DNA from: Chthonomonadales bacterium
GTDB lineage: Bacteria; Armatimonadota; Chthonomonadetes; Chthonomonadales; CAJBBX01
Assembly: GCA_020849275.1 (NCBI GenBank)
Contig: JADLGO010000065.1
Coordinates: 1-64,000 of the forward strand
DNA: 64,000 bases
Reading direction: 5' to 3'
Made by a program: the position numbers and the translations under genes. The notes beneath the pieces are model-generated. The model was not told where the DNA came from and made no database searches. It saw only the letters and a list, made by a program, of their open reading frames with translations. This document shows, piece by piece, positions 4,279-52,261 of this stretch (its first letter is position 1; each line of letters opens with the position of its first letter).

Positions 4279-7262
4279 GCCTCGTCCTCCGTATTGCGCA
4301 CTTTGGCCATATAGCACACCGCCGGCCGGCGGTTCAGTTCTTCGAGCAGACGGAAACTGCGCTCCGTCGCCCCTTGCCGCGAGACCCGGCTATTGGGGTC
4401 CTTCAGGTTGCCGAACACGATCGCGTCGGCCGGGCAGCTCTGCTCACAGGCGGTCTTGACCTCACCATCCCGCACCAGACGGCCCTCCGTGCGCGCCTTG
4501 ATCCGCGCGGCCTGGATGCGCTGGATGCACAGGCTGCACTTCTCCATGACGCCACGGCTGCGCACGGTGACATCGGGGTTCAATGCCAGGCTGCGCGTCG
4601 GATCGTTCTTGATGTTGTTGAACCAGTTGAAGCGGCGCACCTTGTAGGGGCAGTTGTTCGCGCAGTAGCGCGTGCCGACGCAGCGGTTGTACACCTGGAC
4701 GTTGAGCCCCTGGTTATCGTGTTCGGTCGCCAGTACGGGGCACACCGTCTCGCACGAGGCGTTGTCGCAATGCTGGCACATCAGGGGCTCGTAGAGAACC
4801 CCGGGGTCATCGTTGCCGCCCGTGTAGTAACGGTCGATGCGCATCCAGTGCATCTCCCGCTGGCGAGCAACCTCCTTGGGGCCCACGACCGGCACGTTGT
4901 TCTCGATGTCGCACGCCGTCACGCACGCGGAGCAGCCGACGCACCGTGTCAGGTCGATGGCCATGCTCCACTGGTATTCCGGGTACTCGTGGCGGTCCCA
5001 GAGATCGGCTCGCTTCTCCTCTTCGCTGAAGGACTCCGGGTGCAGACCCTTGCGGAACTCGGCGTAGGTTGCCTGTCTCACGAGCGGCCGCTCGTCCATC
5101 GTATCGTGAATCTGGGTGCGGGCAAAGGGGTGCACCCGCCCGTCCGGCCCGTCGGTCGCCGCGATCTCGATGGCGATGCCTCGGCGGCTGCGCCGCGGCC
5201 CTTGCATCGCGACCAGCGGGTATGCGTTCACCCCGACCCCGCTGCCAACCGGGCCGGCCTGCTTGCGGCCGTAGCCGAGCGCGATGGAGACCGTTCGAGG
5301 GTGCTGCCCGGGCTGTATGTGCGCGGGGAGCACCACCGACGGCGCCCGGGCGGAGCCCGCGGAGCCTCTGACCGTGACCCACTGCCCGTCCTCGATGCCC
5401 TTCTCGCGGGCGAGCGCGGGCGAGATGGCAGCGTAGTTGTCCCAGGTGATCTTGGTCAGCGGGTCCGGCAACTCCTGGAGCCAGGGGTTGTTGGCGTCGG
5501 ACCCGTCGCGCAGCGCGACAGGCTCGTACACCTCTAACTCGAGTCCGCTCGCGGCCATCGGGCGGCCAGCGATCTCGCGCAGCGCGGCCGCCGCCTCCGC
5601 GCGAAGCCGGGGCGCGGGCGGGGGCGGCGACGCGGCGAGCTCCAGGTAGCCGCGCTGGAGCATACCGTCCCAGAACGCGTCGAAGGTCGCGAACTCGCGC
5701 TGGCGCGGGAACAGTCTGGTCTGCCAGTGCCTGCGCAGGTAGCTGTGGAACCTCTCGCCCTTGCCCTGCCACTTCAGGAGGTTGTCCTCAAAGGCACGCG
5801 TCCGGTAGAGCGGGCGGATCGTGGGCTGGAACAGGCTGTAGCTGCCTGCGTGCGGTTCGGCGTCTCCCCACGCCTCCATGGAGTGGTGTGATGGGCAGTG
5901 CCACGTGGCCGCGCGCGCCGTCTCGTCGGGCACCGTGGCCATGGAGACCGCACACGCCACCTTGCCGAGCGCCTCTGCGAACTCCCCGGCGCGGGCGAAG
6001 GTGTACGCGGGGTTGCAAGCATGGACGATCAGCACCCCAACCTCGCCGCGCCGCATCTCGTCCACCAGGAGCGACATCTCGGCGTCGCTCCCCTGCTTCT
6101 GCAGCGACGGCCGGGCCAGGTCGACCGTTCGCCCGGTGTTCCCCAGCGCCTCGTTCAGCGCCAGCACCGCAACCTGAACGGAGACGTCGTCCGAGTCGCT
6201 CACCACCAGGCTGCGCCCACGGGCCGCGCGCAGCGCCGCCGCCATCGTCTCGACCCGCCTCGCCGCCTCGGGGGAGAGGCTGGGCGTCGCCGCGGCCGCC
6301 AACGCGCCCGTGGCCGGCCCGGCATGGCCGCCCTCGCGGCCGATCGCTGCGGCTACTGCCGCCACATAGGCTCCCTGCTCCGAGGGGGCGACCCCGTAGC
6401 GGATGTCCGCGTTACTGCCGGTGAGCGACATGCGGGACTCGACGTGGTAGTGTCGCGACATCGCGGAGTCTGGGTGAGCGAGGTTCCTGCCAGCCGAGTA
6501 CTGCTTGGCGAACTCCACGGGCGACAACCATGTGCCGAGGAAGTCCGCCCCGAAGCTGACGATGACCTCGGCGCGATCGAAACGGTACCCGGGCACGAGC
6601 GGCTGCCCGTAGACACGGCGGTGCGCCTCGCGCATCGCGTCGTAGGAGATGGCGTCGTGGACCACGTGCCTGCCATGCGGAAAGCCGGCAAGGAACTCCG
6701 AGATCAGTGCCCGGGTGGAGGGGCCGCTGACGCTGCTGGTGAGCACGACCACCTTGCGCTGCTGCCGGCGCGCGTCGGCCAGGTGCTGGCCGATCTCGCT
6801 GTCCACACGCTCCCAGGTGACGCTGGCGCCGCTTTCGGTCGGGCCCCTCTGCCGATAGGGGTCGTAGAGGCCCACGATCGAGCCCTGGCCGGCCGCGCAT
6901 AGCCCGCCCTTCGACATCGCGTGGTCAGGATTGCCCTCCAGCTTGATCGGGCGCCCGTCCATCACCTTGGCCAACGCGCCGCAACTGGCGCTGCAGCCGT
7001 GGCACGTGGTGGCATACCATCTGGCCACGCCCGGGGTGGCCTCGGGCGGCTGGTGCAGGTAGGGGATGATCTTCTTCCGCGGGGCGCGGCAGCCAGACAA
7101 CGTGCCGGCAGCGATGGTAAGCCCCATCAGCGTCAGGAACGAACGACGGTCTACCGCTGGCAGACCCGCCTGGGCCGCCCCACCGTCGGGTACATCGCTC
7201 GACTCGCTCGCCGGCACTTCCCCCAGAGCCCGTGGGCCCCTCTCGTCTTGCCTCTCGGCCAT
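4275..7262 (-). CDS. actB: Alternative complex III subunit ActB (molybdopterin-like / Fe-S protein)
   Basis: A 995-residue protein of the CISM family. It carries a Tat-like motif (RRSFL, residues 39-43) and a lipobox LSGC ending at Cys58, as in other ActB proteins. Residues ~60-700 resemble a molybdopterin oxidoreductase domain, which in ActB lacks the cofactor. The last ~270 residues form a ferredoxin-like domain with four cysteine clusters: CVGCSACVTAC, CQHCDNASCETVC, CVGTRYCANNC and CSLCIQRI...CEQSC. ActB relays electrons within ACIII on the periplasmic side. The start is ATG 7262 (GGGAGAAG upstream), 27 bp after actA. Confidence 0.9.
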   Translation of the reverse strand: MAERQDERGPRALGEVPASESSDVPDGGAAQAGLPAVDRRSFLTLMGLTIAAGTLSGCRAPRKKIIPYLHQPPEATPGVARWYATTCHGCSASCGALAKVMDGRPIKLEGNPDHAMSKGGLCAAGQGSIVGLYDPYRQRGPTESGASVTWERVDSEIGQHLADARRQQRKVVVLTSSVSGPSTRALISEFLAGFPHGRHVVHDAISYDAMREAHRRVYGQPLVPGYRFDRAEVIVSFGADFLGTWLSPVEFAKQYSAGRNLAHPDSAMSRHYHVESRMSLTGSNADIRYGVAPSEQGAYVAAVAAAIGREGGHAGPATGALAAAATPSLSPEAARRVETMAAALRAARGRSLVVSDSDDVSVQVAVLALNEALGNTGRTVDLARPSLQKQGSDAEMSLLVDEMRRGEVGVLIVHACNPAYTFARAGEFAEALGKVACAVSMATVPDETARAATWHCPSHHSMEAWGDAEPHAGSYSLFQPTIRPLYRTRAFEDNLLKWQGKGERFHSYLRRHWQTRLFPRQREFATFDAFWDGMLQRGYLELAASPPPPAPRLRAEAAAALREIAGRPMAASGLELEVYEPVALRDGSDANNPWLQELPDPLTKITWDNYAAISPALAREKGIEDGQWVTVRGSAGSARAPSVVLPAHIQPGQHPRTVSIALGYGRKQAGPVGSGVGVNAYPLVAMQGPRRSRRGIAIEIAATDGPDGRVHPFARTQIHDTMDERPLVRQATYAEFRKGLHPESFSEEEKRADLWDRHEYPEYQWSMAIDLTRCVGCSACVTACDIENNVPVVGPKEVARQREMHWMRIDRYYTGGNDDPGVLYEPLMCQHCDNASCETVCPVLATEHDNQGLNVQVYNRCVGTRYCANNCPYKVRRFNWFNNIKNDPTRSLALNPDVTVRSRGVMEKCSLCIQRIQAARIKARTEGRLVRDGEVKTACEQSCPADAIVFGNLKDPNSRVSRQGATERSFRLLEELNRRPAVCYMAKVRNTEDEA

Positions 7263-7289
7263 CAACTTCTCCCGTGCGCGCTCAGCATC

Positions 7290-7844
7290 TCAATAGTGGC
7301 AGGTTGAGCATTCGACCGATGCGTCGACCTTACCCATACCCGGCGGCGGGTGTTTGGTGTACTGCCGGTGGCAGCCCACGCACCAGCCCATGCTCAGGTG
7401 TCTTGCCTGCTCAACTCGCGCCATATCCTGCACGGGGCCGTGGCACGTCTGACACGCAACCCCCTTGGTCACGTGCGCGCTGTGGTTGAAGCGCACGAAG
7501 TCAGGCATGCGGTACACACGCTCCCACTCGATCGGCTTGTCGCTCTTGATGGCCGCCGTGATCTTCTTGACCTCAGGCGAGTCTTTGAGCACCTGCGAGT
7601 GGCAGTTCATGCACACGTTCGCGGGCGGTACCCCGGCCACGGCGCTCCGCCGCGCGTCAGAGTGGCAATACTCGCATGGGATCGCGTTATCCTTGGCGTG
7701 TATCTTGTGCGAGAAATCGATCGGCTGAACCGGGGCGTGGCCTGTCTGGTCACCGATCCAGGCGTACTGCGTGGGGTCAAAGAGCAGTGCGCCGCCCAGC
7801 AGCGTGACCACCACCGACACCACGACGGCCGACTGCAGATTCAC
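7290..7844 (-). CDS. actA: Alternative complex III subunit ActA (pentaheme cytochrome c)
   Basis: A 184-residue protein with one N-terminal hydrophobic anchor (residues ~5-25) and five heme-binding CXXCH motifs: CEYCH, CMNCH, CQTCH, CVGCH and CSTCH. A pentaheme cytochrome anchored by a single helix and placed first in the act string is the hallmark of ActA. It receives electrons from the quinol-oxidising part of ACIII. The start is GTG 7844, only 3 bp after the narI stop, so the act genes directly continue the nar genes. Confidence 0.92.
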   Translation of the reverse strand: MNLQSAVVVSVVVTLLGGALLFDPTQYAWIGDQTGHAPVQPIDFSHKIHAKDNAIPCEYCHSDARRSAVAGVPPANVCMNCHSQVLKDSPEVKKITAAIKSDKPIEWERVYRMPDFVRFNHSAHVTKGVACQTCHGPVQDMARVEQARHLSMGWCVGCHRQYTKHPPPGMGKVDASVECSTCHY

Positions 7845-7847
7845 CGT

Positions 7848-8588
7848 CTAGTCCTCCTTGCCGGGGCCAGCCGACACCGTGGTGACCGGGAGGTTCCTGC
7901 GCCGCGGATCGCGGTTCCAGATGACCACCTGCGGTGGCCGCCGCAGATACTGGAGGGGCGGCACCAGCAGGTGCACCAGCCGCGAGAACGGCAGCAGGGC
8001 GAAGAAGATGAAGGCGCCCAGAATGTGCGCCTTCACGGCGAGCGGCAGCACGGCGACCGTCGCGATGTCTGGCTGGAACGCGAGCAGCGATCGAAGGTAG
8101 GGGACCAGGACGATCGCATACCAGTTGGAGCCCCATCGCAGCGAGGTCGCGATGTAGACCCCGAGCCCGGTCTGGGCGAGTAGCACCACCAGGATGACGA
8201 TATCCATCGTCGTCGTGACGGCGCGCACGCGCGAGTTGCGCAGGCGCCGCACGCATAGGTTAGCGATGCCGATCAGCGCCAGCAGGCCCCCGACCAGCGC
8301 GCTGATCTCCAGGATGAAGAGGCGCACCGGTACGCTGTTGAAAGCCAGCAGCTCGCGCGGGAAGAGGAACGCCACGAGGTGGCCCGTCAGCACCCAGAGA
8401 ATGCCGTAGTGCCAGGGGACGGAGCCCGCGAACAACTGGTTCCCCTCAAGAAACTGCGACGACAGGCTCGAGTAGCTGAAGCGCCGCTGCACGTACCGGC
8501 GAATCGACTCGAACACCATAATGAACACGGCGACGTAAGGGAACAACTGGAAAAGCACGACATCGAGGTTCATCCGGAGCATCTCCAT
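7848..8588 (-). CDS. narI: Respiratory nitrate reductase gamma subunit NarI
   Basis: A 246-residue five-helix membrane protein of the NarI family. It binds two b hemes, oxidises menaquinol or ubiquinol and feeds NarH. Conserved His pairs are visible in WHYGILWVLTGHLVAF and in the helix LPLAVKAHILGAF...SRLVHLL. The length matches NarI (about 225-250). It follows narJ with a 54-bp gap and abuts actA by 3 bp. The ATG at 8588 fits the amphipathic N-terminus MEMLRMNLD. Confidence 0.93.
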   Translation of the reverse strand: MEMLRMNLDVVLFQLFPYVAVFIMVFESIRRYVQRRFSYSSLSSQFLEGNQLFAGSVPWHYGILWVLTGHLVAFLFPRELLAFNSVPVRLFILEISALVGGLLALIGIANLCVRRLRNSRVRAVTTTMDIVILVVLLAQTGLGVYIATSLRWGSNWYAIVLVPYLRSLLAFQPDIATVAVLPLAVKAHILGAFIFFALLPFSRLVHLLVPPLQYLRRPPQVVIWNRDPRRRNLPVTTVSAGPGKED

Positions 8589-8642
8589 CGCAGGGCCGCG
8601 CGTATCCGGGGTGGGACCGCCGCCGTCGTAGCGGGCAACGCC

Positions 8643-9233
8643 CTACCGGCCGCCCGCGGCGCAAACATCAGCAGGCTCTGCCATCTCCGCGAGATCGCTC
8701 TGGAGCACCAGCGCGACCGCCTGCAAGACCTCGCGGTAGGGGTTCGCGCCCCCCTCCACATTGCCGTGCGCATCGCGGGCAGGGGCCAGCGCGTTGTCCA
8801 TCCTGCGGATCGTCGGCAGCACGCACTCCCGCACCATGTCGGTGCAGATCTCTGTACCGTAGATGCGCGCCAGCCAGCGCAAGATCACCGGCAGGTGATC
8901 GGGCAGCTCAATCTCGGGCGCCATGCCCGCAGCCTCCTGGCTCTCGCGCAGGTGGGCGAGGAACACGCCGCGCTGGAAGTCCTCGCCGAACAGGTAGTAG
9001 CCCACGTCGAGAGAGCAGGAGGGGTTCAGGTCGAACGTCCGTGTGTAGAGCTCCTGCACCGCCCACAGCGGAGTGGCCTCGAAATAGCCGGCCCATTCCT
9101 CCAGCAGCCGCGCGACCTCCGCGGTCTGGCCGACCGACTCGGCGAGGCATGCACGGAGCTTTGCGCCGGTCGACTCGTCCGGGTAATCGAGCAGCGCGGC
9201 CAGTTGCTCATACCCAACGCCCATTGTGGCCAT
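8643..9233 (-). CDS. narJ: Nitrate reductase assembly chaperone NarJ
   Basis: A 196-residue member of the NarJ/TorD chaperone family, needed for cofactor insertion and membrane docking of NarGH. It shows the family pattern LAALLDYPDE near the start, LYTRTFDLNP and GYYLFGEDFQRG in the centre, and DHLPVILRWL. The ATG at 9233 starts one base after the narH stop, indicating tight coupling; a second ATG at 9224 is possible. The order narGHJI is canonical. Confidence 0.93.
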   Translation of the reverse strand: MATMGVGYEQLAALLDYPDESTGAKLRACLAESVGQTAEVARLLEEWAGYFEATPLWAVQELYTRTFDLNPSCSLDVGYYLFGEDFQRGVFLAHLRESQEAAGMAPEIELPDHLPVILRWLARIYGTEICTDMVRECVLPTIRRMDNALAPARDAHGNVEGGANPYREVLQAVALVLQSDLAEMAEPADVCAAGGR

Positions 9234-9234
9234 G

Positions 9235-10731
<1,497 letters not shown>

Positions 10732-44964: not shown

Positions 44965-46395
44965 CTACAGTGCGGGCTGCCAGTTCGGGTTGGGCGCGGG
45001 GATGCGCGCGCACACCGAATCACGCCAGGCCGCCAGACGGGCGCGCATCCTCGCCGCCCGATCCGGCTCGATCGCGGCTCGATCGCGCGTTTCGCCGGGA
45101 TCGTCGCTCAGGTTGTACAGCTCCAGTCGCCCATCCTCGTGGAACTCGATCAGCTTGTGGTCGCCCATGCGGACGGCGGAGGCCGGCGTTCCGCCCTGAT
45201 TGCCGTAGTGTGGGTAGTGCCAGAAGATCGCGTCGCGCTCGAGCCGCCGCGCGCCCAGAAGGAGCGGGACCAGGCTGACGCCGTCCACGTGCTGGTCGGG
45301 GCGCGCCGGGAGGCCCGCCGCCGCGAGCAGGGTCGGGTAGACGTCGGTGCTCACGACCGGCGTGTCGCACACCTCGCCAGGCGAGGCGTGGCCTGGCCAG
45401 CGCACGACGAGCGGTACCCGCGTACCACCCTCGTAGCACCAGCCCTTGCCCTCCGCCAGTGGGAGGTTGCTGGTGGGCGCGCCTTCGGAGGTGGCCAGGC
45501 CGCCGTTATCGGAAGTGAACAGCACCAGCGTGTCGTCGACCAGTCCGCACTCCTCAAGGGTGTCGAGGAGCCGGCCCACGTTGCGGTCCAGATTGTGAAC
45601 CATGGCGGCGTAGGCCGGGTCCGATTGCACGATGCGGCGCGTCACGCGAAGGTGGCGCTTGTGCTCGCACGGGAACGGCTCGCCGGCTCGCACCGCCGCG
45701 ATGCCGTCGAGGCCGAGGTCGGCGGCTCGGGCACGGAAGCGTTCGACGAGAGCGGGTGCGGCCTCGATGGGCGTGTGCACGGCGTAGTGCCAGAGGTTCA
45801 GGAAGAAGGGACGGTCGCCGGCCCCGCGGACCCGCGCGATCGCCTCGTCGGTCAGGCGGTCCGTGAGCTCCTGACCTGGCGGCCCGTTCGGCAGCCCAGG
45901 GATGCCCCACGGGCTGAAGTAGCCGTTGTGCGGGTGACCCCACGCGCAGCCCGCCACGTTGACGTCGAAACCGTGCCGCTCGGGTCCGTAGGAGGCGTCG
46001 CCGAGATGCCACTTGCCCACGTGCCAGGTCGCGTAGCCGCCCTCGCGCAGCGCCGATGCCAGGCTTGTCTCCTCCAGGGCGAGATGGTCGATGTACGGAG
46101 CGTCCAGGAGGCGCCCGCGCGCCTGGCCCCCAATGTAGTTCGTGAGGCCGAGCCGGGCCGGGTACTTGCCGGTCATGATGCTCGCGCGCGTTGGCGAGCA
46201 GACGGGGCAGGCGGCGTAGGCCGCCGTGAAACGCATCCCCTCGGCCGCGAGGCGGTCAAGGCGCGGGGTGAGGTAGAACGGGCTCCCACTGCAGGCCAGG
46301 TCGCGCCAGCCCAGGTCGTCGATCAGGATCAGGACGATGTTGGGCGGGCGCGAGCGCCGCGTGGCGTGATGGGTGAGCGGAATCGGGTGGGTCAT
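44965..46395 (-). CDS. Sulfatase (arylsulfatase-like, formylglycine-dependent)
   Basis: A 476-residue sulfatase. NIVLILIDDLGWRDLACSGS supplies the paired Asp metal ligands, and CPVCSPTRASIMTGKYPARL contains the canonical CSPTR active site. GGYATWHVGKWHLG and LVLFTSDNGGLA are further family motifs. It is closer to arylsulfatase A-type enzymes than its neighbour. ATG 46395 was chosen because the catalytic domain begins about 18 residues later; no export signal is visible. It is first in a two-gene sulfatase operon and divergent from the GH57 gene. Confidence 0.93.
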   Translation of the reverse strand: MTHPIPLTHHATRRSRPPNIVLILIDDLGWRDLACSGSPFYLTPRLDRLAAEGMRFTAAYAACPVCSPTRASIMTGKYPARLGLTNYIGGQARGRLLDAPYIDHLALEETSLASALREGGYATWHVGKWHLGDASYGPERHGFDVNVAGCAWGHPHNGYFSPWGIPGLPNGPPGQELTDRLTDEAIARVRGAGDRPFFLNLWHYAVHTPIEAAPALVERFRARAADLGLDGIAAVRAGEPFPCEHKRHLRVTRRIVQSDPAYAAMVHNLDRNVGRLLDTLEECGLVDDTLVLFTSDNGGLATSEGAPTSNLPLAEGKGWCYEGGTRVPLVVRWPGHASPGEVCDTPVVSTDVYPTLLAAAGLPARPDQHVDGVSLVPLLLGARRLERDAIFWHYPHYGNQGGTPASAVRMGDHKLIEFHEDGRLELYNLSDDPGETRDRAAIEPDRAARMRARLAAWRDSVCARIPAPNPNWQPAL

Positions 46396-46580
46396 GGGCG
46401 TGCTGCTGGCTGACGGGATCGGCAACCGTCGGCGCTGGGTAGTTCGACGCGCGGGCCGGCCGCTCCTTGTGTGGGTGTTGCGGCGGCCGCCGCCGGGAGG
46501 AGACGCCGGGCGCCGCGCCAAACCTAGGCGCGGATGCACGCCCCCCGATTCGGTGCGGCTGAGGCCGACTGGAGAACGCG

Positions 46581-47813
46581 ATGACGCTGATCACCCTCTA
46601 CTTCTTCGCCCATCAGCCCGACCGCCTGCTCCCGTACGACCGCCGCCGCTCATTCGGACGCACGGCGCGCGACCTGCACCAGCACTACTTCGACGATGAA
46701 CTCAACGAGCAGGTCTTCCGCAAGGTGGCCGGCAAGTGCTACTACCCGGCCACACGGCTCATCCTCGAACTCGTCGAACGTCACCGCGACAGCGATAAGC
46801 CCTTCCGCGTGGCGTACGGCCTGTCGGGCACGTTGCTCGACCAGATCGAGCGGTACGACACGGGCCTGTTGGACCTTTTCCGCCGCCTCTCGGACACCGG
46901 GCTCGTCGAGTTCACCGGCGAGGTGTACTACCACTCGCTCGCCGGGCTGTTTGACGCCGAGCGACGGGAGTTCCAGGAGGAGGCGCGCATGCACGCCGAC
47001 CGCCTTGAGTCGCTGTTTGGCCGGCGGCCAGCGGTGTTTCGGAACACGGAGTGCATGTTCAACAACGGCATCGCGGCGACGGTGCAGGCGATGGGTTACG
47101 AGGGGATCATCACCGAGGGCGTGGACTGGCTTCTCGCCGGTTGGCGCTCGCCCGATTTCGTGTATCGAGCGACGTGCGGCCTGCCCGTGCTCATGCGCAA
47201 TTACCAACTCTCCGACGACCTGGGCTATCGGTTCAGCAACCGTGACTGGGAGGGGTGGCCGTTGCGCGCGGAGACCTTCGCCGGCTGGCTGGCTGGCAAC
47301 ACCGACATGAACGTGGTGCTCGCACTCGACTACGAGGCGCTCGGCGAGCACATCTGGGCCGACAGCGGCATCTTCGAGTTTCTGCGGCACCTGCCGGACG
47401 AGGTCATGCGCTATCCCCAGCTTGCCTTCACAACGCCCACCGAGGCTGTCCGAACGCTGCCGACCGTCGGGGAGGTGAGCGTGGACGACTACGCCACGAT
47501 CTCGTGGGCCGACCAGGAGCGCGACACCTCGGCCTGGCTGGGCAACGAGATGCAGCGCTACTGCCATGAGGAGCTCAAGCGGATGGAGGGCATCGTCAAG
47601 CGCGCCAGAGATGCCGCCCTGCTGGACTGCTGGCGCCGCATGCTAACGAGCGATCACCTGTACTACCTGGCGACCAAGTCGTTCAGCGACCAGGATGTAC
47701 ACAAGTACTTCAGCGCGTACGGCAGCGTGGTGGAGGGCTTCGTGCGGCTACACACGGCCGCCATCGACCTCTGGCACCGCGCGGAGAAGCTCGCGGGCGA
47801 AGAGACGGGGTAG
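46581..47813 (+). CDS. Glycoside hydrolase family 57 protein (alpha-glucan-active)
   Basis: A 410-residue GH57-type protein. Motifs in order: LYFFAHQPDRL (the family's HQP/HxH opening), PFRVAYGLSGTLLDQIERY, FTGEVYYHSLAGLF, FRNTECMFNNGIA with the expected nucleophile Glu, and LALDYEALGEH with the acid/base Asp. GH57 includes alpha-amylases and 4-alpha-glucanotransferases; members like this are usually cytoplasmic and act on alpha-glucans such as glycogen. ATG 46581 follows GGAGAACGCG. The length is typical for the shorter GH57 subgroup. Confidence 0.88.
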   Translation: MTLITLYFFAHQPDRLLPYDRRRSFGRTARDLHQHYFDDELNEQVFRKVAGKCYYPATRLILELVERHRDSDKPFRVAYGLSGTLLDQIERYDTGLLDLFRRLSDTGLVEFTGEVYYHSLAGLFDAERREFQEEARMHADRLESLFGRRPAVFRNTECMFNNGIAATVQAMGYEGIITEGVDWLLAGWRSPDFVYRATCGLPVLMRNYQLSDDLGYRFSNRDWEGWPLRAETFAGWLAGNTDMNVVLALDYEALGEHIWADSGIFEFLRHLPDEVMRYPQLAFTTPTEAVRTLPTVGEVSVDDYATISWADQERDTSAWLGNEMQRYCHEELKRMEGIVKRARDAALLDCWRRMLTSDHLYYLATKSFSDQDVHKYFSAYGSVVEGFVRLHTAAIDLWHRAEKLAGEETG

Positions 47814-47824
47814 AAGGCGGGCCC

Positions 47825-48406
47825 TCAGTCAGCGTCGGCCGCACCGCCGGAGGGTAGGCCCCACGCGGCGCGGAGCACCGCCTCCACGAACCCGGGCGGA
47901 GCCTCGGCGGGCAGCAGGCCGCTCAGAGGCGATTCGGCGAACTCGTAGATCGACCACGCGGTAGGAGGCCAGGTCCGTCCTTCTGGAGGCGCCGAGGCAA
48001 CCTCGAGCCGGCGCGCGGTGTCGCCGGTCGGGTCCACGGTGTGCAACAGGTCCAGGAGCTGGTTGGCGCGTGCCAGGTAATGGCCGGCGAGCGCGGGCTC
48101 GCCGGCGCGTATGGCGGCGCGCAGCCCGCCGGCGGCGGCCAACAGATGCGTGCCGAGCACATCGAGCACCGAGCTGATGCGCTCGGGGCGTGCCTCCGTG
48201 GACGCCTCCGGCTGGGGCGCAAGGGCGGGGTCAGCGGCGCTCGGCGCGGCCGGGCCCGCGTGCGCGCTCTCGACCTGGGGCGGCGGCTCGGCGGCCGACC
48301 CGGGCTCGTCCAGCGTGGAGACGCCCTCGATGAGCGCGTCGAACTCGAACGCGTCGGCCCCCTTGCGCAGGCGCTCGCGCAGCGTGCTCAGCTTACTGGC
48401 TCGCAC
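47825..48406 (-). CDS. ParA-linked protein of unknown function
   Basis: A 193-residue protein with no recognised family. The N-terminus (VRASKLSTLRERLRKGADAF) is basic and helical, followed by a Pro/Ala/Glu-rich linker and a helical C-terminal half (VLDVLGTHLLAAAGGLRAAI, YLARANQLLDLLHTVD). GTG 48406 overlaps the parA gene by 14 bp, so the two are coupled. In the position where parB is usual there is no ParB-like HTH or nuclease motif. It may be a cargo or adaptor for ParA (inference). Confidence 0.65.
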   Translation of the reverse strand: MRASKLSTLRERLRKGADAFEFDALIEGVSTLDEPGSAAEPPPQVESAHAGPAAPSAADPALAPQPEASTEARPERISSVLDVLGTHLLAAAGGLRAAIRAGEPALAGHYLARANQLLDLLHTVDPTGDTARRLEVASAPPEGRTWPPTAWSIYEFAESPLSGLLPAEAPPGFVEAVLRAAWGLPSGGAADAD

Positions 48407-49169
48407 GCCGCATGACCTCCTCCGCGAGAGCCTCGTAGTTCTGGGCGCCGCTCGCGCGCCGGTCGAACAGGATGATCGGCATCCCCTCCACCTCGGACTC
48501 GGAGAGCCGGACGTTCTTGTAGATGACGGTCTCAAACACCTTCTCGCCGAATCGCTCGCGGATCTCGGAGGCGATCGTCTGATGAATCCGCGTGCCGCGC
48601 TCACACATCGTCAGAAGCACGCCCATCAGCTCAACCCGGAAGCGCAGGCCCTTGGTCAGGTCGACGATCATCTTGTTGAGCGTGTCCATGCCGGCGAAGG
48701 CATAGAACTTGGGCTCCGTCGGGATGAGCAGGTGGCCGCACGCAACGATCGCGTTCTGGGTGAGCGTGCCGAGCGAGGGTGGGCAGTCGATGAAGATCCA
48801 GTCAAACTCCTGCTCGGCCGTGAGCGCCTCCAGAGCGTTGCGGAGTCGGTAGGCCTTGTCGGCGTACGGCATCAGTACCGCCTCGCAGTGCGCAAGGTCG
48901 AGGTGGCCCGGCGCCACGTAGAGCGGGAGGCTGGCCACCTGGCGCAGGACACCCGCCAGCGGCGTCGCGTCCGGATCCATGAGCACGTCGTGCAGCGCGC
49001 ACGGCAGGTTGTACCATTCGATGCCGAGGCCGAGGGTCAGGTTGGCCTGGGGGTCCAGGTCGATCAGGAGCGTCCTCATGCCGCGCGCGGCCAGGCAGGC
49101 GCCCAGGTTGGCGGTCGTCGTCGTCTTCGCGACGCCGCCCTTCTGGTTCACCACGGCGACGATCCTCAT
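48393..49169 (-). CDS. ParA/Soj-family ATPase
   Basis: A 258-residue ParA-type ATPase. The deviant Walker A is VNQKGGVAKTTTTANLGACL with both Lys; the A' motif is LLIDLDPQANLTLG, and the Walker B is WIFIDCPPSLGTLTQNAI. It lacks an N-terminal HTH, like the chromosomal Soj and cargo-positioning ParAs. It forms DNA-associated dimers that move cargo. ATG 49169 overlaps the stop of the preceding gene as ATGA. There is no parB next to it and two unknown genes flank it, suggesting an orphan system for positioning something other than the chromosome (inference). Confidence 0.9.
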   Translation of the reverse strand: MRIVAVVNQKGGVAKTTTTANLGACLAARGMRTLLIDLDPQANLTLGLGIEWYNLPCALHDVLMDPDATPLAGVLRQVASLPLYVAPGHLDLAHCEAVLMPYADKAYRLRNALEALTAEQEFDWIFIDCPPSLGTLTQNAIVACGHLLIPTEPKFYAFAGMDTLNKMIVDLTKGLRFRVELMGVLLTMCERGTRIHQTIASEIRERFGEKVFETVIYKNVRLSESEVEGMPIILFDRRASGAQNYEALAEEVMRRASQ

Positions 49170-49945
49170 GGGATGGCCACCTTCTCCACCGCGGACGGCG
49201 ACCCCTCGACGAGGGTCAGGCGGCTGGCCTCCGCGCGCACGATTCCCAGCGGGTTGAAGACGGTACGCGGGCGCAGGCGAACCTGCTCGGGCCGGTCGGC
49301 GGGACGGCCCTCCACGAGGAAGACGCCGTTGCGCAGGTCGTCGAGGAACGACATGTACTCCTCCGCGCACTCCTGGTCGTCATGGATGCGCATGCGTGTG
49401 AGGTCGACGATGGCCTGCCACAGGGGCGTGCCCGGCTCGACGGCATGCTCGCGCGGGCGGAACTTCACGCGGTCGCCGCGACAGAACGGGTTGCTCCAGA
49501 CGTCGCCGAGTGGCGCCCAATCGCTGTTCTCGCCCTCCGCCAGCGTGGGCGTACCGAGCGAGAGCCGTCCGGCCGAGCGGCGAACCGGGTATAGGCAGCA
49601 ACGCTGGCCGCCATCGCGCTCCTGGAGCGCGATGGCCAGGTAGCGTGCCGCCGCGCCGGTGTCCTCTTCCGGAGCGGTGAAGCGCACGGTGCGGTCGGCG
49701 ATGGTCACGATGCCGAGGACTGCGTGGGCGACTGCGTCCAGATCGCGAACATACCGACGTGCCTCCTCGAAGGCTGCCTCGGGGCCGTCCTCGGGCGCCC
49801 AGTCGAGGGCGACGGCCTCGACGCCGGCCGACGCGGAGAAGGCCAGAACGGTCGGTCGGATCGTACCGGAGCGCAGCACGCTGCTCGTCGCCCCGACGTC
49901 CAGAAGCGACCACTCGGCGTCGAAGTCGAACACGTCGTCAGACAC
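49166..49945 (-). CDS. Unknown protein upstream of parA
   Basis: A 259-residue soluble acidic protein with no recognised family. It starts MSDDVFDFDAEWSLLDVGAT, contains a strand-rich first half (TVLAFSASAGVEAVALDWAP, AVLGIVTIADRTVRFTAPEE) and a second half with NPFCRGDRVKFRPREHAV, TRMRIHDDQECAEEYMSFL and VRLRPRTVFNPLG. There is no signal or membrane segment. Its ATGA overlap with parA shows coupling. It could be a partner of the ParA ATPase, but nothing in the sequence proves this. Confidence 0.7.
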   Translation of the reverse strand: MSDDVFDFDAEWSLLDVGATSSVLRSGTIRPTVLAFSASAGVEAVALDWAPEDGPEAAFEEARRYVRDLDAVAHAVLGIVTIADRTVRFTAPEEDTGAAARYLAIALQERDGGQRCCLYPVRRSAGRLSLGTPTLAEGENSDWAPLGDVWSNPFCRGDRVKFRPREHAVEPGTPLWQAIVDLTRMRIHDDQECAEEYMSFLDDLRNGVFLVEGRPADRPEQVRLRPRTVFNPLGIVRAEASRLTLVEGSPSAVEKVAIP

Positions 49946-50083
49946 GTAGCATCCTCACTGTCCCGCGCTCGTCGCGATGCCGGCCGTACACGCGTCCCGC
50001 TGCGGGCTCGGATGCCCGCCGACCGTGCCCATTCTAGACAGCGTGCTTCGGCGATGTCAAGCCGGGCGGCGGGCGAACAGAGC

Positions 50084-51076
50084 TCACTCGCCTGCGCGGA
50101 AGGCATCCCGGATCAGGCGCAGAGAGGGTGGGCCGCCCGGGCGCCGTAGGACCTCCACCACGTCGAAGCGTACGGCGGGCGCCGGATCGCCGAATCCCGC
50201 CAGGTACGTCTCGGCGGCCGCGGCCATGCAGGCCCGCTTGCGCCAGTTGACGGCCTCGGCCGGCGAGCCGGTTCGGCCTGTCGTCCGGGTCTTGACCTCG
50301 ACGAACACGAGCGTACGGCCGTCGCGCGCGACGATGTCGATCTCGCCGCCCTGGGCGCGGTAGCCGCGGCACAGAACGCACCACCCTGCCTCCTCAAGCC
50401 ACCGGGCGGCTGCCGCCTCGCCTGCCTGGCCCGTGCAGCGGCGCTCAACAGCATCGAGGGCGAGCGCTGGATGAATCAGCGCCCCGGCGACCGGCGCGAA
50501 CGAGCGGCGGTGGATGGAGCAGGGCCCAAGCCGGCGAAGAGCTTGCAGGTGCTCGGGGGTGGGATAGCCCTTATGAGCGGCGAGACCGTACCCGGGGTGC
50601 TCCGCGTCGAGCGCCGCCATCAGCCGGTCGCGCGTCACCTTCGCCACGATCGACGCGGCCGCAACCGTCGCGCTGCGCCCGTCGCCCTGCACCACCGCGA
50701 CCGAGGGAACGGGGAGTCCGGGAACCGGGAGGCCGTCGACGAGCACGGCATCCGGCGGCGGCGAGACGGCTGCGATCGCGCGCCGCATCGCCTCGTGGGT
50801 GGCGCGGAGGATATTGAGCCGATCGATCTCGGGCGCCTCCACCGAGGCGGTGCCGACGCCGTCGGCGGCTGCAAGGATCGCTTCGAAGGCGCGGTCGCGC
50901 TGCCGCGGCGTCATGGCCTTCGAGTCGCGCACGCCGGTCAGTGCGACACCGAAGGGCAGGACCACGCAAGCCGCCACTACGGGCCCGGCCAGCGGGCCGC
51001 GACCCGCCTCGTCGACGCCACCGACGCGGCCGCAGCCGCGTTGGCGCAGCGAGCGCTCCTCGCGCCACCAGTCCAT
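50084..51076 (-). CDS. rnhB: Ribonuclease HII fused to YraN (UPF0102) nuclease-like domain
   Basis: A single 330-residue frame joins two proteins usually encoded by adjacent genes. Residues ~18-205 are RNase HII, which removes ribonucleotides from DNA: GGVDEAGRGPLAGPV has the DEAGRG motif, and DAVLVDGLPVPG and ASIVAKVTRDRLM follow. Residues ~215-330 match YraN/UPF0102: GQAGEAAAARWLEEAGWCVL, then the endonuclease-like core GGEIDIVARDGRTLVFVEVK. The junction (ALDAVERRCTG) is short. It ends the conserved ffh-to-rnhB block, 55 bp after lepB. Confidence 0.92.
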   Translation of the reverse strand: MDWWREERSLRQRGCGRVGGVDEAGRGPLAGPVVAACVVLPFGVALTGVRDSKAMTPRQRDRAFEAILAAADGVGTASVEAPEIDRLNILRATHEAMRRAIAAVSPPPDAVLVDGLPVPGLPVPSVAVVQGDGRSATVAAASIVAKVTRDRLMAALDAEHPGYGLAAHKGYPTPEHLQALRRLGPCSIHRRSFAPVAGALIHPALALDAVERRCTGQAGEAAAARWLEEAGWCVLCRGYRAQGGEIDIVARDGRTLVFVEVKTRTTGRTGSPAEAVNWRKRACMAAAAETYLAGFGDPAPAVRFDVVEVLRRPGGPPSLRLIRDAFRAGE

Positions 51077-51130
51077 GCGTTCACGCCCTCGCGCCTCGCC
51101 GGCGCGAACGGCCGCTCACGCGCTCCGGCA

Positions 51131-51874
51131 TCAACGGATGAGGCCGATGCGCGAGAGCGGCCAGAAGATGAACGAGGCCTTGCCGATGACCCGGCTGCGC
51201 GGCAGGGGACCCCAGAATCGGCTATCGTTGCTGTTGTTGCGGTTGTCGCCCATCACGAAGAGTTGGCCGGGGCCGAGCGTGAGTGGGCCGCGCGTGGCGA
51301 ACTGCGCAAGCGGCGTCTCGCGCATCGGCTCCTTCACGTATGGCTCGCGAAGCTCCTTGCCGTTGCGCCACACGTGCACCACATCCTCGCCGCCGGGGTC
51401 CGGCCGCACCTCGATGGTGTCGCCGGGGACGCCGATCAGGCGTTTGATCAGCACGTGCTCCGTCTGCATACCGCCCTGTACATCGGCCTTCTTCTCGGCG
51501 CGGAACACGATGATCTCTCCGCGCCTGGGCTCGCGGAAGCGGTAGAGGAGCTTGTTGACAAAGATGTGGTCGTTGATCGTGTCCGTGTGGTTCACCCCGG
51601 TCGGCGACAGGCCGGCCTGGTGACCCATCAGCGTGGGCTCCATGGACTCGGAGGGTATGAAGAACGCCTGCAGGAAGAACGGCCGGATGATCAGGAAGAC
51701 CAGAACGCCCGCGATGATCAGCGACTCGACGAGCTCCGCGACGGCCCTCGCTGCCACGGAGCGACTCGGCGCCAGCGCCAGGCGGATCACGGTCAGCGCG
51801 AACGCGAGCGCGACAATGGTGCCGACGCTCAGGTTCGCGAGCCATTCCGTGGCGCCGACTTCCTGTGGTTGCAT
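51131..51874 (-). CDS. lepB: Signal peptidase I
   Basis: A 247-residue type I signal peptidase with two N-terminal membrane helices (~13-35 and ~50-70). The catalytic Ser is S77 in FFIPSESMEPTLM and the general-base Lys is K144 in VLIKRLIGVPGD. Box E is FVMGDNRNNSNDSRFWGPL. It cleaves signal peptides on the periplasmic side of the membrane. It sits between rplS (33 bp) and rnhB in the conserved translation/export operon. The ATG 51874 start places both helices in register. Confidence 0.95.
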   Translation of the reverse strand: MQPQEVGATEWLANLSVGTIVALAFALTVIRLALAPSRSVAARAVAELVESLIIAGVLVFLIIRPFFLQAFFIPSESMEPTLMGHQAGLSPTGVNHTDTINDHIFVNKLLYRFREPRRGEIIVFRAEKKADVQGGMQTEHVLIKRLIGVPGDTIEVRPDPGGEDVVHVWRNGKELREPYVKEPMRETPLAQFATRGPLTLGPGQLFVMGDNRNNSNDSRFWGPLPRSRVIGKASFIFWPLSRIGLIR

Positions 51875-51907
51875 GCGTGTGTTCCGGGTAGCCGATCGCG
51901 CGGGGCG

Positions 51908-52261
51908 CTAGCTGGCGGACCGATCCTCCTTGATGCGGGCCCTCTTGCCCACGACGCCGCGCAGATAGTACAGCTTGGCCCGGCGCACGCGACCGCGGCG
52001 GGTGATCTCGATCCGATCCACGCGCGGCGAGTGCAGCAAAAACGTCCGCTCGACACCGATCTGGTGCGAGATCTTGCGGACGGTGAAGCTTGTGCGGTTT
52101 AGCGTCCCCTTGCGGGCGATCACGACCCCTTCGAACATCTGGATGCGCTCTTTGCCACCCTCCACCACCCGCGCATAGACGCGCACGGTGTCACCTGCGC
52201 GGAAAACGGGCACCTGCTCCTTGAGCTGTGCCCGCTCCAGGTCGGAGATGACGGGGTTCAT
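51908..52261 (-). CDS. rplS: 50S ribosomal protein L19
   Basis: A 117-residue ribosomal protein L19, located at the 30S-50S interface. Recognisable segments are [33 protein letters not shown] and [19 protein letters not shown], then [19 protein letters not shown]. The length is standard. It follows trmD by 57 bp and precedes lepB in the usual ffh-rpsP-rimM-trmD-rplS order. Confidence 0.98.

Follow-up and report, generated by a model that had tools for sequence, protein, structure and literature searches.

A three-gene ParA locus without ParB in one lineage of Armatimonadota and a candidate partner of its ATPase

Introduction

What does a ParA ATPase work with when no ParB gene adjoins it? The question is raised by three minus-strand genes at positions 47825-49945 of the window, a stretch of 64,000 nucleotides (positions 1 to 64,000 of contig JADLGO010000065.1, assembly GCA_020849275.1) from a Chthonomonadales bacterium of the phylum Armatimonadota. 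The middle gene encodes a ParA, here called P2, and the genes on either side encode the proteins P1 and P3. PMC10241942 attributes the lack of known partners for many orphan ParAs to the extreme diversity of the partner proteins. A preliminary description of the locus, made from the sequence letters, likewise presented this ParA as an orphan, possibly one that positions non-DNA cargo. A literature search on ParA in Armatimonadota or Chthonomonas brought up no relevant work, as judged by titles.

Comparison of 13 genomes points to P3 as a candidate partner, to its first 32 residues as a possible contact peptide and to P1 as a further conserved component. The trio is read here, with moderate confidence, as a single transcription unit whose products would form a nucleoid-based positioning module of the ParA/MinD type that is complete in itself and works without ParB, in which P3 would act as activator and adaptor of the ATPase and P1 as a second component.

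A conserved trio of overlapping genes

The three genes of the trio are as follows.

49166-49945, minus strand: P1, a protein of 259 amino acids (aa) and unknown family; open reading frame (ORF) with start GTG
48393-49169, minus strand: P2, ParA ATPase of 258 aa without an N-terminal helix-turn-helix (HTH); ORF with start ATG, Pfam AAA_31
47825-48406, minus strand: P3, a 193-aa protein, proposed ParA-activating adaptor; ORF with start GTG

P1 and P2 overlap by 4 bp (ATGA), P2 and P3 by 14 bp. The coordinates, strand, lengths and both overlaps in the preliminary description are correct; the translational coupling that it states is deduced from the overlaps. Neither P1 nor P3 has a Pfam or NCBIfam match at cut-off or a ParB_N match in Pfam, in agreement with the earlier observation that no ParB or HTH partner adjoins the ParA. 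The best sub-cut-off match of the two proteins is that of P3 to DUF6264, at 15.2 of 31 bits. A Pfam scan of all aligned orthologues gave no row at E <=1 for the 13 P1 sequences and weak single rows for the 12 P3 sequences. No Rfam match at the gathering threshold is present in 46000-52000.

The trio is a real unit rather than a chance arrangement, and 12 relatives carry its proteins together. Of the 291 phylum genomes searched, 13 contain P1, and the same 13 contain P3. These are all 12 searched genomes of the window's family, its own genome included, and G012, from a second family of the order in which the only other genome, G014, is 64% complete; the trio was not found in the remaining genomes of the 291. 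A P2 orthologue lies between P1 and P3 in 13/13 and the gene order is constant, with both P1 and P3 adjoining ParA in every case. All 13 genomes carry P3 or at least its N-terminus: the contig of G001 stops within P3, so that only the N-terminus was counted there and the P3 alignment (A2) has no G001 row. With start codons picked by the analyst, P1 and ParA still overlap in 11 of the 13 loci, the window's locus counted, and ParA and P3 in 12. ParA is 64-84% identical to its 12 orthologues, compared with identities of 34-54% and 36-49% for its two partners. Conservation of the three-gene set, proposed earlier as a check across the phylum, is thus seen in one family plus one genome of a second and is not phylum-wide. 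Loss of linkage in relatives, which had been named as contrary evidence, does not occur in any genome with the genes.

P3 as a candidate partner of ParA

Three parts can be distinguished in P3.

48311-48406, minus strand: P3 residues 1-32, basic helix at the N-terminus, conserved and proposed to contact ParA (identity, charge, model)
48200-48310, minus strand: P3 residues 33-69, acidic linker, which is rich in Pro and Ala in the window (identity, length, charge, model)
47852-48199, minus strand: P3 residues 70-185, conserved helical domain, proposed contact to cargo or P1 (identity, model)

The partner proteins of ParA/MinD ATPases, though diverse, contact the ATPase through a charged N-terminus, as described in PMC10241942 and the preprint PMC12204374. 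The preprint also reports that the first 20 residues of H. neapolitanus McdB are necessary and sufficient for the interaction with McdA. P3 has the build of such a partner, namely a conserved basic N-terminal peptide and a separate conserved part. Mean pairwise identity over 12 sequences is 60% for residues 1-32, 23% for the linker and 43% for the C-terminal part. The net charge over residues 1-19 is +2 to +4 in all 12 sequences, and the linker is net negative in 12/12 and varies from 19 to 81 residues, with a C-terminal part of 112-122 residues. The structural model consists of a helix at residues 4-19 with a predicted local distance difference test score (pLDDT) of ~70, a middle mostly at pLDDT <50 and a helical domain mostly at >90. 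By eye, the P3 N-terminus (LRxRLRKG....FDALIxGVS) is loosely like that of ParB1 from the same genomes (KRGLGKGLxALI).

A fold search with the helical domain of P3 gave only middling Z scores (<=7.2, with a root-mean-square deviation (rmsd) of 4.3 over 85 residues), which are common for helical arrangements, and profile searches of the PDB with alignments A1 and A2 returned no row below E 0.09. Judged by its build, P3 is probably the partner of ParA and is proposed to be an ATPase-activating adaptor. Since P3 looks like that partner, the term orphan, which is apt insofar as no ParB adjoins the ParA, is probably too strong.

ParA and its relation to chromosomal partition

P2 is classed as a ParA/MinD-type P-loop ATPase with a deviant Walker A motif containing two lysines.

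49122-49142, minus strand: deviant Walker A motif K10-GGVA-K15-T of ParA; K10 and K15 invariant in 13/13

Its match to Pfam AAA_31 begins at residue 1 and scores 157 bits, well above the cut-off of 27. Of 25 NCBIfam models listed, none attains its cut-off; the best are RepA (99 of 348 bits) and ParA_partition (97 of 180), and the bacterial MinD model TIGR01968 scores 60.3 of 212.9 bits. In a tree of 43 ParA sequences, which leaves out L126 (157 residues), the 13 trio ParAs and a paralogue from the window's genome (contig C3) form a clade with support 99/97, and the Soj rows form a separate group. The label "trio" takes two changes on this tree, not one, since the C3 paralogue sits within the trio clade. 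Very long branches lead to L021 and to L018, the ParA on contig C54 that has a ParB beside it; L018 falls on the trio side.

The trio ParAs and six ParB-adjacent Soj proteins are fixed differently at 16 positions, four of which are clustered in one segment (Q152E, E154K, L158F and E159A). Such differences would be expected if the partner surface had changed. Trio ParAs and Soj share K10 and K15 as well as the basic character of residues 194, 218 and 221. By analogy with Soj, these basic residues would serve nucleoid binding.

The chromosomal Soj/Spo0J/parS system has an ATPase of the same family. The trio ParA is 36-44% identical to the Soj proteins read here and, like them, has no N-terminal HTH. 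In contrast to Soj, it has no adjoining ParB and falls in a separate clade, and P3 has no ParB domain. The window's genome encodes three ParB_N proteins, all on contigs other than that of the trio. One of them, ParB1 (example of its N-terminus: MEKRGLGKGLSALL), adjoins Soj on contig C17 together with the only parS-like site found. The parS search covered TGTTTCACGTGAAACA with <=2 mismatches, other centromere types being outside its scope; the single match is the one on C17, and none lies near the trio ParA.

A ParB acting in trans was considered as the partner and set aside as less likely on the gene contexts. The preliminary description had named a parB elsewhere, with parS sites, that pairs with this ParA as contrary evidence; ParB1, however, adjoins its own Soj in all 13 trio genomes. 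ParB2 is no obvious partner either, as it shows no ParB1-like N-terminal peptide where its sequence was read and occurs also in genomes lacking the trio, among them at least four of the sister family (G013, G015, G020 and G022). Of 13 ParB2 sequences read, 10 have a longest frame that starts within ~10 residues of the ParB domain; the N-terminal extension is a few residues longer in L145 and comprises ~24 residues in the window's genome (L015) and in L156. No KGLGKGL-like motif is present in the ParB2 N-terminus where it was read, L130 being excluded as a wrong-strand reading. The trio ParA is, as far as sequence and context go, a second system beside the chromosomal ParABS.

Two side observations concern these ParBs. 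A further ParA with an adjoining ParB_N protein, unlike the Soj-ParB1 pair, lies on contig C54 of the window's genome (L058 ~6650-10127). The second ParB without a ParB1-like N-terminal peptide (L015, L145-L156) is present in trio holders and also in genomes of the order that lack the trio.

The trio could also be a diverged partition system for a chromosome or another element, in which P3 or P1 would bind the centromere without being recognisable as such a protein, in the way that ParG does for ParF. The best NCBIfam models of the ParA are those of partition ATPases, albeit below their cut-offs, and the closest paralogue in the window's genome (70% identical; L060 8434-9219, contig C3 30433-31218) lies beside a DUF3467 gene and a prophage run with small and large terminase subunits, portal and major head protein in PHROGs. 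This paralogue, however, has neither P1 nor P3 beside it, and every trio genome already has ParB1 next to Soj. No Pfam DNA-binding domain was seen in P1 or P3. P1 has no relatives in viral contigs, phages or plasmids, and P3 has none in plasmids, the mobile elements that its search covered. The PHROGs search returned a single row for P1, at chance level (E 0.011, unknown function), and none for P3. A partition system of this kind is rather unlikely, although the prophage context of the C3 paralogue slightly raises its standing. A mobile origin of the trio as a whole was rejected on the same searches, which covered viral contigs, phages and plasmids for P1 and plasmids for P3. As for the C3 ParA itself, a phage may have acquired it, or the trio may have acquired its ParA from a phage.

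P1 and the genes around the trio

The most conserved stretch of P1 lies near its N-terminus.

49865-49930, minus strand: P1 residues 6-27, its best conserved part, modelled mainly as helix (identity, model)

Mean pairwise identity of P1 is 62% for residues 6-27, 36% for 28-139 and 55% for 140-250. The AlphaFold2 model (pLDDT 86.8) has a helix at 8-26, and the modelled build comprises this N-terminal helix, an alpha/beta domain (~28-139) and, at the C-terminus (~152-250), a beta-rich domain that contains a helical insert. Foldseek gave no match in the PDB at E <=0.001. The best VIA-align rows, with Z 4.3 (the first with rmsd 2.7 over 55 residues), cover the C-terminal part and include KOW and SH3 domains. 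Four uncharacterised phage proteins in BFVD match P1, with E values from 2.5e-5 to 4.4e-4. For three of them the alignment has 146-158 columns (TMq 0.36-0.38), and for the top one it has 261 columns with an rmsd of 19.1. These matches share part of the P1 fold and point to no function; tblastn detected no relatives of P1 in phages.

A different role for the ParA is suggested by BcsQ, an ATPase of cellulose synthesis: the trio ParA might be a regulatory P-loop ATPase for an enzyme or envelope complex formed by P1 and P3, and no positioner. BcsQ-type models match the ParA weakly, below cut-off (75.0 of 157.85 bits for TIGR03371, 31.5 of 399 for NF007460), and P1 is predicted to be globular, alpha/beta plus barrel-like. 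The retention of K10, K15 and the basic residues 218 and 221, which are basic in Soj too, is at odds with such a role. Nor are there conserved enzyme or secretion genes beside the trio where this was inspected, save a GH57 gene (window 46581-47813, plus strand) that converges on the trio and has a like ORF at that place in 5 of the 12 relatives (in a sixth, the contig ends before the position). A regulatory ATPase of this kind is considered improbable.

The flanks vary between genomes. A scan of ten neighbouring genes, taken from 6 of the 12 relatives, gave a mixture of housekeeping, metabolic and unknown genes: M29 and M15 peptidases, HNH, a phosphatase, HAD, an aminotransferase, a methyltransferase, DUF4082, an RseB-like protein and one without a match. 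PADLOC gave no match for P1 or P3 and a weak one over the P-loop of ParA; a role in defence was set aside on its silence about P1 and P3.

Cargo candidates and known positioning systems

Comparison with characterised systems provides candidates for the cargo, which for this ParA would be something other than DNA. The McdA/McdB system of carboxysomes likewise combines a ParA-type ATPase with an adjoining small partner that has a basic N-terminal helix. In contrast to that system, the trio has a third conserved gene, and its genomes are without a bacterial microcompartment (BMC) shell protein: none of the 22 genomes searched, which include 12 trio holders, has the shell domain, and among 14 control genomes E. 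coli and Synechococcus were positive. A microcompartment was rejected as cargo on this count. PpfA/TlpT involves an orphan ParA outside the parAB operon that serves chemoreceptor clusters, according to the review PMC9178275. The trio ParA is also an orphan outside a parAB operon; unlike the PpfA/TlpT case, CheW is present in 7 of 12 trio holders and was not found in the other 5, all of which are 98-100% complete. Chemoreceptor arrays, which PpfA and ParC position, were accordingly rejected as a common cargo. The counts for BMC, CheW and MinC omit G001 (78% complete), G014, G019, G023, G024, G026 and G028-G030.

The PomXYZ system of Myxococcus xanthus offers a third comparison. PomZ is well conserved and PomX and PomY diverge, as stated in PMC7993993, which gives PomX a length of 404 residues. 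According to PMC7993993 and PMC13170346, PomX begins with a conserved, charged peptide, continues with a variable stretch rich in Pro and Ala and ends in a helical part. The trio, too, consists of one conserved ParA and two poorly conserved, co-occurring partners, and the build of P3 resembles that of PomX. P3, with 193 aa, is half the size of PomX, however, and its modelled helical domain is shorter; the likeness is one of build.

The favoured reading may be extended from here by naming the cargo. By a logic convergent with PomXYZ, the ParA would move an assembly of P1 and P3 across the nucleoid to midcell, where this assembly would place the FtsZ ring, replacing Min. The shared pattern of a well-conserved ParA whose two partners diverge, one of them carrying a charged peptide at its N-terminus, a variable linker and a helical C-terminus, is consistent with this proposal, and so is the distribution of MinC, which is present in 1 of 12 trio holders compared with 5 of 10 sister-family genomes without the trio (Fisher p 0.056; 0.012 without the window's genome). 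The trio holders are one lineage, however, and the contrast may thus be one event. Five of the 10 sister-family genomes, moreover, are without MinC and also without the trio, and nothing ties the trio to ftsZ. Positioning of the division site is possible but unlikely.

The sole trio holder with MinC is the window's own genome, in which contig C6 (6190 bp; L024 1-960) carries MinC and the start of MinD. The MinD fragment is identical to PDB 6riq at 45 of 55 positions and also matches 3q9l, entries that we take to be the MinD proteins of Pseudomonas and E. coli, respectively; its identity to the MinD of the sister family is 62%. Since the fragment is closer to the PDB entries than to the sister-family MinD, C6 is possibly a contaminant and may be foreign to the assembly.

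Promoter and upstream genes

The preliminary description suggested that placement after an ffh-rnhB block ties the trio to constitutive expression. A promoter-like site lies between rnhB and P1.

50031-50060, minus strand: promoter-like site of the trio, TTGACA-18-TAGAAT, 11 of 12 matches

One such site was found, compared with 0.1 expected. A sigma-70-like site of the form TTGAC[AT]-17/18-TAnAAT is present upstream of P1 in all 13 loci, at a distance of 38-99 nt from the start in 11 of them and of 238 nt in two close relatives. The sequence in these two loci is AT-richer, and chance is less remote there: shuffled sequence attains 9 of 12 matches in 28% and 38% of trials. Because the site precedes the trio in 13/13 loci, the trio most likely has its own predicted housekeeping promoter, and its position behind the ffh-rnhB block looks incidental. 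An rnhB-like ORF is found near the trio in 0 of the 12 relatives, and the proposed tie in expression is not borne out. No terminator-like site was found, so read-through is possible. What remains of the preliminary description at its core is a ParA without an adjoining ParB in a conserved three-gene set; that the ParA is partnerless is doubtful.

The identity of rnhB was confirmed by Pfam, and the remaining genes of the ffh block were identified from translations alone. The rnhB ORF (window 50084-51076, minus strand) encodes ribonuclease HII followed by a UPF0102 domain in Pfam, apparently a fusion of two usually separate genes.

A proposed mechanism and the evidence that weighs on it

In the proposed module, ATP-bound dimers of ParA (P2) would coat the nucleoid, and P3 would sit on the cargo by means of its C-terminal helical domain. 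The flexible acidic linker of P3 would span the distance to a ParA dimer, with which the basic N-terminal helix would make contact. This contact would trigger ATP hydrolysis and the release of ParA, as a result of which the cargo would follow the receding ParA gradient. P1, at a guess, may be part of a cargo scaffold or a second regulator. We infer a single transcript, nucleoid binding, activation of the ATPase by P3 and contacts among P1, P2 and P3 as the steps on which the scheme depends.

Several points weigh against this reading. The N-terminal helix of P3, the proposed contact, is modelled at a pLDDT of only ~70. The rule of a basic N-terminus is loose, and many unrelated proteins would satisfy it. 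Genes linked to the cargo usually give it away, but none was seen among the ten neighbours scanned in 6 of the 12 relatives. Finally, the nearest paralogue of the ParA adjoins prophage genes, so that an origin or a role in DNA partition is possible; this context slightly lowers the standing of the positioning module.

Significance

The module is restricted to one lineage of uncultured Armatimonadota and defined well enough to test. Should its cargo be the division site, the module would add another independently evolved answer to those of Min, MipZ and Pom. More broadly, though only tentatively and with low confidence, the trio may represent a novel system of three proteins for spatial organisation in one Armatimonadota lineage, which would place the division site or another large protein assembly through ParA-driven movement across the nucleoid, would have arisen independently of PomXYZ, Mcd and Min, and would be built with two protein families that are unnamed in the libraries searched.

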